Virus record (IMG/VR): IMGVR_UViG_3300025121_000135
Coordinates: 1 to 25,945 of that record
Origin: a virus
DNA: 25,945 nt
Direction: 5' to 3' (one strand)
Part shown: one piece after another, positions 2,467 through 4,643 of the stretch
Numbering within the stretch: the stretch's first letter is position 1
Layout of the letters: every line of letters starts with the position of its first letter
The notes under the pieces: model-generated
The model's database searches: none
What the model was told of the DNA's origin: nothing
The model's input: the letters and a program-made list of their open reading frames with translations, nothing else
Made by a program: the position numbers and the translations under genes

Positions 2467-2628
2467 CTATTGTGTAGCACGGTGAAACATGCGCCTCAGA
2501 ATGAGCGTCGCAGAAAACAACACCTGCTCGACCGGAACCGGGGGAGTTTCAGTACTGGCACACGCGACTGCAAAACTCTGAGCATCCAATTCCGCACCAA
2601 CAAACAAGACCCCCGACAACATCGTCAT
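2467..2628 (-). CDS. small hypothetical protein, 53 aa, coupled to methyltransferase
   Basis: The ATG at 2628 overlaps the TGA of the methyltransferase gene (ATGA overlap), the same junction type used at several other gene borders here. A longer frame beginning at 2757 would overlap the methyltransferase coding end by about 130 nt and is less likely. The product starts MTMLSGVLFVGAELDAQSFA and is mostly hydrophobic with a basic C-terminus (LILRRMFHRATQ). No motif is recognised. There is no strong Shine-Dalgarno, so re-initiation after the methyltransferase stop would be needed. Confidence 0.45.
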   Translation of the reverse strand: MTMLSGVLFVGAELDAQSFAVACASTETPPVPVEQVLFSATLILRRMFHRATQ

Positions 2629-4229
2629 GGCCGGCACGCCATGAACGCACGAATGAACTCCGCAGCGAGCGGCGGCACTATTGCGTTTCCGTACGCGCGC
2701 AGTTGCCCCGTGCGACCGGGCCTGACGGGAGCGATCGGGCTGACCGAGCTTATGCAAAATCGGCCTCCACTACATATACCGCACCCCGCTTTCTCTTCGT
2801 CAGAAATGGATTCCCATGCTTTTTGAATCTCTGATAGTGTCGTGGGCACATCCCCGCCTTGACTGAGGTAACGCTGCAAAAACGACAAGGCGGCTTCGGT
2901 TTTGCCGTCTCCCGTCGCAAGCGCCCATGCTCTTTCATGTGACACACAAAACACACGGGCGTCAGGTTGTCCGGGGCATTGTTCATTGGGTTGCCGTCCG
3001 CGGGATGTACGTTCAAATTGCGCGCAGTCCCGCAGTCCCGGCAATTCTTCCCGACGTGCTTTGCTGCCTGTCTCCGGTATGCCTTCGGCGACTCTACCTT
3101 GATCCTCCCCATCTGCCACGACGCCATGCATCTCCTGTCGCAGAACAGCCGCTGGTTGAATACCGAAAGATCCTCCAACCTCAGCCCGAACACCTTCCGC
3201 ATCATACGCACAGCGCATTGCTTGCAATATTTCTCTGGAGTTTCCTTCTGTTTGCGCCCCATACATCACCCCCGTTTCCCTCTGGCAGGTGCCAATTGAG
3301 TCCATTGTATGGGCAACCCCATCAGATAGCAGACGAATTCTGGGGCGAGTCGGGCGAGACTTTCCGTCCCGGCAGGAAAGCCATTCGATGTCGGACCAGG
3401 GGCCTGCGCCGCCTGCCGGGGCAACTGGTCGAGTCGTTCCCGCCCCGTCCCGTCCGGGTTGATCCCCGTCGTCGCCATACCCGGTGTGTCCTTCCAGTCT
3501 CTGCTGCTTGGCGTTGTCCAGCCGACCAGTTGCACCTGGTCCTCCAGGTTCCGCACATCTCCCGGCTGTACCCGATTCCCGCCCGCGTCGCCCCGTGCCC
3601 GCGGCGTCTGCCAGCCGACAAACTTCACAGCGTGCTCCAGGCTCGCCGTGTGTTTCTTCCCGTCCTGCGTGCGCCCCGTGGCATCCATCTTGTCCACATC
3701 CATCGTTCGTCCGCCGCTTGGCGTGTTGGGAGTCGGCCACCCAGTACAGCCGCTGCCGGATGTGCGGTGCGCCGACGCTACAAGCTGGAAGTACCGTCGC
3801 CCCGCAGGTGTAACCTTCTCCTTCCAGGTCGTCGAATACAAGATCGAGCCAACCCCCTCCAATTGCTGCTCCAACCTGCTCGCCAAACACAGTGTCAGGC
3901 TTGCACTCGCGGATGAGACGGTAGAAGTCTGGCCAGAGATGTCGGTCATCACACACTCCTCTCCGATTGCCTGCAACAGAAAACGGCTGACAAGGAGCCG
4001 AGCCGGTCCACACGGGGCGTCCCTCGGGCCAACCAGCGAGATGCAGGGCCAGCGGCCAACCAGCGATCCCGGCAAAGAAGTGGCATTGCGTATACCCGTG
4101 CAAATCTGCGGGGGAAACCGTCTGTATCGGCCTGTCGTCGATGTCGCCCAACGGTATGTGCCCCGCCACCATGAGGTTCCACAGCCACGCGACGCAGTAC
4201 GGATCAATCTCGTTGTAGTACGCGACCAC
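2625..4229 (-). CDS. DNA (cytosine-5) methyltransferase, 534 aa, with HNH gene in its 3' part
   Basis: The start is GTG at 4229 (VVAYYNEIDPYCVAW), matching where related phage enzymes begin as I remember them. Cytosine-5 methyltransferase motifs are seen in order: motif I FFAGIAG (51-57, S-adenosylmethionine binding), motif IV PCQPFS with catalytic Cys80 (79-84), a motif VI equivalent VFGEQV (114-119), motif VIII RQRLYWVAD (158-166), and near the C-terminus RAYGNAIVPPLAAEF (motif X-like). Residues 160-310 hold LAD-type repeats typical of the family's variable recognition region. Residues about 322-493 overlap the HNH gene in another frame; removing that part leaves about 350-360 residues, nearer the family length I expect. 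It probably modifies phage DNA against host restriction. If the enzyme needs an uninterrupted C-terminus, activity is uncertain. Confidence 0.8.
   Translation of the reverse strand: MVAYYNEIDPYCVAWLWNLMVAGHIPLGDIDDRPIQTVSPADLHGYTQCHFFAGIAGWPLALHLAGWPEGRPVWTGSAPCQPFSVAGNRRGVCDDRHLWPDFYRLIRECKPDTVFGEQVGAAIGGGWLDLVFDDLEGEGYTCGATVLPACSVGAPHIRQRLYWVADSQHAKRRTNDGCGQDGCHGAHAGREETHGEPGARCEVCRLADAAGTGRRGRESGTAGRCAEPGGPGATGRLDNAKQQRLEGHTGYGDDGDQPGRDGAGTTRPVAPAGGAGPWSDIEWLSCRDGKSRPTRPRIRLLSDGVAHTMDSIGTCQRETGVMYGAQTEGNSREILQAMRCAYDAEGVRAEVGGSFGIQPAAVLRQEMHGVVADGEDQGRVAEGIPETGSKARREELPGLRDCAQFERTSRGRQPNEQCPGQPDARVFCVSHERAWALATGDGKTEAALSFLQRYLSQGGDVPTTLSEIQKAWESISDEEKAGCGICSGGRFCISSVSPIAPVRPGRTGQLRAYGNAIVPPLAAEFIRAFMACRP
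2750..3262 (-). CDS. HNH endonuclease with extra zinc motifs, 170 aa
   Basis: The ATG at 3262 (MGRKQKETPEKYCKQC) is preceded by GGGGGTGA. The N-terminal region has CKQC (13-16) and FCDRRC (40-45), a probable zinc knuckle. The HNH core follows: CRDC (74-77), NVHP with His86, NLTPVCFVCHMKEHGR with Cys104, Cys107, His108 and His112. The C-terminus carries CPRHYQRFKKHGNPF, a knuckle often seen at the end of phage HNH proteins. These enzymes nick or cut DNA and often act as homing endonucleases. The gene lies inside the methyltransferase gene in the +1 frame, just before the enzyme's C-terminal GNAIVPP motif, as expected of a mobile gene that entered a conserved site. Confidence 0.85.
   Translation of the reverse strand: MGRKQKETPEKYCKQCAVRMMRKVFGLRLEDLSVFNQRLFCDRRCMASWQMGRIKVESPKAYRRQAAKHVGKNCRDCGTARNLNVHPADGNPMNNAPDNLTPVCFVCHMKEHGRLRRETAKPKPPCRFCSVTSVKAGMCPRHYQRFKKHGNPFLTKRKRGAVYVVEADFA
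3266..3949 (-). CDS. predicted nested gene in +1 frame of the methyltransferase, 227 aa
   Basis: The ATG at 3949 has GAGAGGAG upstream with a 6-nt spacer, among the best ribosome sites in the window though it lies inside the methyltransferase gene. The frame stays open for 227 codons to TGA at 3266, one codon before the HNH start, in the same frame. The product begins MTDISGQTSTVSSASASLTL. It has STTWKEKVTPAGRR (39-52), three spaced GWxTP elements (70-74, 112-116, 143-147), DWKDTPGM, and ends APEFVCYLMGLPIQWTQLAP. From memory these are hallmarks of a family of uncharacterised phage proteins, including the LMGxPxxW ending. The opposite explanation is that such database entries are themselves frame-shadows of methyltransferases. 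Function unknown. Confidence 0.5.
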   Translation of the reverse strand: MTDISGQTSTVSSASASLTLCLASRLEQQLEGVGSILYSTTWKEKVTPAGRRYFQLVASAHRTSGSGCTGWPTPNTPSGGRTMDVDKMDATGRTQDGKKHTASLEHAVKFVGWQTPRARGDAGGNRVQPGDVRNLEDQVQLVGWTTPSSRDWKDTPGMATTGINPDGTGRERLDQLPRQAAQAPGPTSNGFPAGTESLARLAPEFVCYLMGLPIQWTQLAPARGKRG

Positions 4230-4232
4230 ACT

Positions 4233-4643
4233 TCACCGATCGACCGAGTACAATAGCACAGCACAATCGACACATATGCCGGGAGCAAACGTCACCATAC
4301 CGGAAACAACAACGTCCGGTATGACCGGACCGACGGACGCTACCGCAACATCTGAATCAACACCGGCTATCGCGCGTCTGAAACGGATCACACACCCCCA
4401 CAACCCGCCACCGATATGCGTCAGCCGCTCCCTGCAAACCGGGAACGGAGCCGGAAACCCCCCAGCGAGCACCAGCGCCTCCTCGGCAACACGCGCATCA
4501 TTCGCGGCGCCGAGGCTGTCCGCCAGTATCTGAGTTGCCGTAGCGACAGATAGACGGGGAGACAAGCGCACGCCCTGCAAGAGGAGAGAAAGCGCAATAT
4601 CCAATTCCGGGAACACAGGCCCGCGCCGAGACCAATCGCTCAT
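4233..4643 (-). CDS. hypothetical protein, 136 aa
   Basis: The ATG at 4643 overlaps the stop of the upstream gene (ATGA). The stop at 4233 is 3 nt before the methyltransferase GTG. The product begins MSDWSRRGPVFPELDIALSL. The N-terminal half is helical (LSLLLQGVRLSPRLSVATAT, then AANDARVAEEALVLAGG). The C-terminal half is strand-rich with a hydrophobic end (VSGMVTFAPGICVDCAVLLY). No catalytic motif or signal peptide is evident and I do not recognise the family. Operon position just before the methyltransferase is the only contextual clue. Confidence 0.7.
   Translation of the reverse strand: MSDWSRRGPVFPELDIALSLLLQGVRLSPRLSVATATQILADSLGAANDARVAEEALVLAGGFPAPFPVCRERLTHIGGGLWGCVIRFRRAIAGVDSDVAVASVGPVIPDVVVSGMVTFAPGICVDCAVLLYSVDR

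Follow-up and report, generated by a model that had tools for sequence, protein, structure and literature searches.

A conserved gene nested within phage cytosine-5 methyltransferase genes probably encodes the second subunit of the same enzyme

To our knowledge, long same-strand overlaps with clear selection on two frames are rare outside small viruses. A methyltransferase locus in the IMG/VR record IMGVR_UViG_3300025121_000135 (positions 1 to 25,945; this stretch of 25,945 nt was analysed as a whole and is hereafter called the window) raises the question if one region can encode two proteins and, if so, what the second one does.

Organization of the locus

The methyltransferase gene, here called alpha, lies on the reverse strand (2625..4229), starts with GTG and encodes the 534-aa catalytic subunit of a cytosine-5 (C5) methyltransferase. 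It matches PF00145 (2.3e-17) and phrog_363 (3.8e-71), and its residues 76-165 match M.HhaI (4.6e-9) with PCQ, FGEQV and RQRLY aligned. Alpha thus combines C5 methyltransferase motifs IV, VI and VIII with similarity to solved C5 enzymes. A single frame holds motif IV with the catalytic cysteine (PCQPFS, 3978..3995, reverse strand, also aligned to M.HhaI), VFGEQV, RQRLYWVAD and motif X (YGNAIVP, 2673..2693, reverse strand). VFGEQV and RQRLYWVAD had been assigned to the methyltransferase frame in a preliminary description of this DNA, and both are indeed found on alpha. Motif VIII, GAPHIRQRLYWVA, occupies 3735..3773 on the same strand. No motif IX was seen in the alpha chain, of which PF00145 and TIGR00675 cover residues 75-169 only.

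Ahead of its motif X, alpha spans two nested genes. The first, here called beta (3266..3949, reverse strand), encodes 227 aa in the +1 frame. Its ATG at 3949 stands behind the Shine-Dalgarno (SD) sequence GAGAGGAG (3956..3963, reverse strand) with a 6-nt spacer, as the preliminary description had stated. All further elements named there are present too, that is three GWxTP elements (W71, W113 and W144), TTWKEKVTPAGRR, DWKDTPGM and LMGLPIQWTQ. The beta stop codon TGA is followed by one codon (TGT) and then by the ATG of the second nested gene at 3262, which encodes an HNH endonuclease.

Beta aligns with phrog_1008 (3.2e-20, positions 61-281 of 329). Pfam and NCBIfam searches returned chance-level matches only and no model, and Foldseek comparison of its AlphaFold model with PDB yielded no significant match. 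A single WW-domain match from a PDB profile search (E 0.14) was not taken as meaningful. Predicted alone, beta adopts a poor fold (mean pLDDT 64, pTM 0.27); this might be expected for a subunit without its partner and gives no support either.

Occurrence in phages

Using beta as query, tblastn identified at least 197 phage records, and almost all loci retrieved through either beta or alpha have the two frames open on one and the same DNA. Both protein patterns are recurrent in phages, as the preliminary description had put forward. The pair occurs in 14 of 299 sampled genomes of one bacterial phylum (about 5%) and in hundreds of IMG/VR contigs. PHROGs labels both families "DNA methyltransferase". 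GenBank annotation comprises alpha only in N15, epsilon15, BcepC6B and RcBigEagle, beta only in Cr-LKS3 and phiKX1, and both frames in K1ind1 and K1ind2. Beta of K1ind1 is named "Mte8-like", a term for which a literature search gave nothing useful. Since both frames are present and annotators chose alpha, beta or both, both patterns look recurrent and phages seem to swap them. The idea that phages swap the frame in use is therefore mostly explained by annotation; it holds for rare loci such as L416 and L419 (see below), whose second half can no longer be read in the alpha frame. Annotation routinely records only one of the two overlapping genes, a common error that is corrected here.

Depletion of stop codons in the +1 frame

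The +1 frame might not be translated at all and be no more than the shadow that a conserved methyltransferase casts in a GC-rich genome. High-GC genomes are rich in long spurious frames, and the window itself has 153 ORFs of at least 60 aa. Moreover, xLADA reads as GWxTP in the +1 frame, and conservation of alpha would by itself make that frame look conserved. Stops in the +1 frame were therefore counted against a null in which synonymous codons were shuffled within each alpha with its protein kept, that is, with alpha held constant. In 34 relatives selected solely through alpha, the interval that begins at motif VIII and ends shortly ahead of motif X contains 5 stops where 74 are expected, and the frame is open in 31 of them (4.9 expected). 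The +2 control frame of the same loci has 274 stops, against 280 expected. The stops of HNH-carrying loci (window, L007, L012, L016, L082 and L092/093) are probably located in the insertion region, because these loci carry the HNH insertion. The null was calibrated on 298 unrelated ORFs (6431 stops, 6648 expected, ratio 0.97); Dcm genes, comprising few independent sequences, gave 230 versus 316.

The position of stops was profiled along 154 alphas, a set that includes loci found through beta. Depletion is absent at first and sets in about 40 codons ahead of PCQPFS, from where stops are near zero up to motif X; at motif X they resume, at or above expectation. A second set of lower GC content (down to 42%) was found only by a beta motif of 7-9 residues. 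Summed over GC bins, it contains no +1 stop while 636 are expected. Even the bins of 42-50% GC, where the shadow explanation would predict 383 stops, contain none, and alpha is open in frame -1 for 195 of the approximately 200 motif matches. Frequent stops in relatives, which would speak against a second gene, are thus absent. We conclude that beta is a real, conserved overlapping gene.

Selection on the two frames

Selection was estimated by a simplified two-frame site-class count on independent close pairs. At the third position of alpha codons, change amounts to 0.197 per codon in the N-terminus outside the overlap but to 0.106 inside it, so the proposed synonymous constraint is confined to the overlap. 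At the same time, change at alpha position 1, equal to beta position 3, rises. Within the overlap, beta dNN/dNS is 0.25 (0.17-0.35) and dSN/dSS 0.29, the latter exceeding 1 in a non-overlapping control stretch. Both frames of the overlap are under purifying selection.

The two frames do not share this constraint evenly. Constraint in the catalytic part is strong on alpha and moderate on beta. In the part between motif VIII and the motif IX region, dNN/dSN of alpha is 1.12-1.15 and that of beta 0.29-0.60. In the motif IX part beta is again the more constrained, with 0.09-0.23 in the larger pair set and wide estimates if the closest pairs alone are used. Between motifs VIII and X, beta is therefore constrained and alpha is without detectable amino-acid constraint. 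The preliminary description, which took both frames to be constrained, is borne out for the overlap as a whole and for the catalytic part; from VIII to X it applies to beta only. Likewise, the "LAD repeats" listed as a feature of alpha are the shadow of WPTP modules of beta. This is the reverse of what an untranslated +1 frame would produce, and together with the stop counts it makes the shadow explanation extremely improbable.

Start of beta

In the window, the open +1 frame reaches far beyond 3949 in the upstream direction, to 4288, for a total length of 341 codons. As several in-frame GTG and TTG codons occur there, for example at 4207 and 4075, beta may be longer than 227 aa. Among high-GC relatives, the first +1 ATG past the last stop is usually found 38-55 codons before PCQPFS, and ATG is enriched at the upstream start region (84 versus 40 in a single position bin). 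Among lower-GC relatives this first ATG lies mostly 10-30 codons before PCQPFS. The window and phage N15 start at the later, 3949-type site with a clear SD; N15 belongs to a minority of relatives that share this start. Conservation of the exact start, expected for a translated gene, was found in this minority only, whereas most relatives start further upstream, in the high-GC set about 40-50 codons ahead of PCQPFS. SD-like sites precede the putative start in 55% of high-GC and 28% of lower-GC loci. SD conservation was set aside as a weak family-wide test, because GKGKG-type codons yield purine runs anyway and the lower-GC set is mostly without SD.

Beta as a candidate second subunit

We wondered what beta might contribute. 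HHalign of the beta profile against E. coli Dcm-type enzymes places LARLAPEFVCYLMGLP (3311..3358, reverse strand) as top match on motif IX, PRRLTPRECARLMGFE; the match is short (16 columns), with E 0.017 for a single comparison. In typical relatives this segment lies just upstream of alpha motif X, where motif IX belongs. Beta of L312 shows a weak PF00145 match (profile 243-297), and motifs IX and X stand together in one frame of this locus, a truncated contig. In L416 (4086-5601, 36% GC) the end of alpha follows motif VIII immediately, and beta holds WPTP modules together with motifs IX and X in one frame. L419 (3091-4156, reverse strand) is split similarly, with a somewhat longer alpha.

Since beta carries a motif IX-like segment and presumably the recognition region, its partner would be the other half of the same enzyme. 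Alpha (frame 0) would supply motifs I-VIII and X. Beta (frame +1) would be initiated within alpha from a ribosome site of its own and would provide motif IX together with the recognition region, composed of a hairpin-like TWKxKxTP segment and tandem WPTP modules. Together, the two chains would restore the canonical arrangement I-VIII / recognition / IX / X and methylate phage DNA. The locus is thus very likely to encode a two-subunit C5 methyltransferase of the M.EcoHK31I kind with subunits from overlapping frames. We infer that beta is translated as a separate protein, that the two chains associate physically and that they methylate DNA.

Beta might instead be an independent overprinted protein, such as a regulator or an anti-restriction factor, merely travelling with alpha, and it indeed has no Pfam or NCBIfam match. 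This is very improbable, as beta almost never occurs without alpha: 470 beta and 472 alpha frames were counted, and the 195 of approximately 200 pattern matches mentioned above overlap alpha. In addition, the motif IX-like segment is absent from alpha and stands at the position proper to motif IX, and in L416 motif X has passed to beta, with alpha ending after VIII. Beta, introduced by the preliminary description as an unknown partner, is by this segment and its near-constant company most likely a second subunit. Standalone beta genes, which we had expected in lower-GC phages, were dropped as an idea because of the same overlapping matches.

The DNA order of the motifs is exactly that of a single-chain enzyme, and the ribosome could in principle make one polypeptide by programmed frameshifting, leaving alpha for the +1 frame once motif VIII has been read and returning ahead of motif X. 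One shift would suffice in L416 and L419, but most loci would need two precise ones. A shift after VIII also leaves unexplained that +1 constraint sets in far upstream, about 40 codons ahead of motif IV. In several loci the candidate ATG is immediately preceded by an in-frame stop; in K1ind1 and L012 this stop forms TAG-ATG with an SD-like site upstream, and SD and ATG are clear in the window and N15. Frameshifting is for these reasons very improbable, and separate initiation of a second subunit is preferred.

In-frame fusions of alpha and beta were rejected as a regular form, since they make up only 6 of approximately 470 ORFs and resemble frameshift indels or late splits. In L384 (11232-12239) and L264 (1224-1949, reverse strand), the N-terminal part of beta runs in frame into alpha motif X and motif IX is left in the other frame, reflecting either natural frameshift or sequencing error. 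In L383 the beta motif occurs twice (818-843 and 1860-1885), at a distance of about 1 kb, possibly marking tandem alpha/beta pairs.

Proposed recognition modules

Multispecific C5 methyltransferases of Bacillus phages (SPR, phi3T) carry tandem recognition modules of about 40 aa between motifs VIII and IX. Beta of the window contains three modules on the reverse strand: module 1 (WPTPNTPSGG..., 3614..3739), module 2 (WQTPRARGD..., 3521..3613) and module 3 of the widespread DWKDTPGM type, designated T0 (3404..3520). Among 345 distinct betas, 0-8 WPTP-type modules, mostly 1-4, are found between the TWK hairpin and motif IX; segmentation was performed by pattern, so that part of the calls at the hairpin do not represent true modules. 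The DWKDTPGM type is found at any place from module 1 of 1 to module 5 of 5. Its identity is about 0.75 irrespective of whether the catalytic domains are less than 40% or more than 70% identical. This suggests that the variable region of beta is a mosaic of exchangeable modules, which would make specificity combinatorial.

We infer that the recognition region is located in beta and that its modules set the target sequence. The resemblance to SPR and phi3T would then lie in the several tandem modules; those enzymes are single-frame and single-chain, whereas here the modules stand in a separate overlapping frame. It is conceivable, though we hold this tentatively, that specificity resides in another frame than catalysis throughout a widespread phage methyltransferase family: beta modules, each with its own target, would be shuffled as double-coding cassettes for which alpha just has to stay open, resulting in combinatorial multispecific methylation that evades host restriction. 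The arrangement provides a testable prediction on where specificity of phage methyltransferases lies and a natural system in which the modules of a split methyltransferase could be swapped.

Comparison with split methyltransferases

The small subunit of M.EcoHK31I is reportedly also encoded in an alternative frame within the large one. This C5 methyltransferase (YGGCCR) consists of two polypeptides (Lee, Kam and Shaw 1995, cited in PMC3404938); as outlined in PMC3404938, the larger carries motifs I-VIII and X and the smaller motif IX. Judged by motif layout, alpha with I-VIII and X and beta with motif IX in overlapping frames are alike. In contrast, the constrained recognition region is here found in beta, with 1-8 tandem exchangeable modules, while the predicted recognition domain of M.EcoHK31I is placed in the large subunit in the same account (PMC3404938), contrary to what we propose for beta. 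Unlike M.EcoHK31I, the present enzyme belongs to phages, no restriction partner was seen, and in the window an HNH gene is nested in alpha.

M.AquI is likewise made of two polypeptides, the small one comprising part of the recognition region, motif IX and also motif X (PMC3404938). Beta of L416 and L419, which includes motif X, resembles this small subunit and represents a natural M.AquI-like split. In the window, unlike in M.AquI, motif X is retained by alpha, and the overlap of the two genes is nearly complete. The split format is already used for targeted methylation tools (PMC3439449).

HNH genes nested in alpha

The HNH gene of the window (170 aa, 2750..3262, reverse strand; phrog_1271 5e-7, weak PF01844) lies in the +1 frame between the end of beta and motif X. 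Among several hundred loci, eight distinct ones have an HNH gene after beta inside alpha (window, L016, L012, L007, L093, L034, L082 and L160). Across HNH, the alpha frames of these eight contain 1 stop, against 43.8 expected, and the third frame 43, against 42.4. The single alpha stop belongs to L007, whose alpha itself ends in that stretch. Alpha is thus kept open across HNH. A homing-type HNH would have been inserted in the +1 frame behind beta, with alpha kept open so that motif X stays attached.

This out-of-frame position resembles an insertion recently reported in ShiLan (2025, PMC11855218), where HNH occupies another frame of a methylase gene and the methylase frame is open across it. 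The eight loci are a new group of such ShiLan-like insertions. They differ in that a nested methyltransferase subunit immediately precedes HNH and shares its +1 frame; in the accessible text of the ShiLan paper (PMC11855218) we found no nested second subunit described. A further difference is that the open host frame is shown here statistically, in eight diverse loci (1 versus 44 stops).

Our literature search on phage two-frame methyltransferases found only papers on split enzymes and the ShiLan paper. New with respect to these sources are the extent of the arrangement in phages, the evidence for selection on two frames, the proposal that beta holds the recognition region, its mosaic of modules, and the joint occurrence with an out-of-frame HNH.

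Two minor observations concern neighbouring frames. In the window, a 136-aa ORF without PHROG match (4233-4643, reverse strand) ends 4 nt before the alpha start, which suggests translational coupling to alpha. In L108 (3278-4654, forward strand), the beta frame contains a further HNH-like domain, upstream of where beta usually lies; it is situated mid-alpha, between catalytic motifs, and alpha is open through it.
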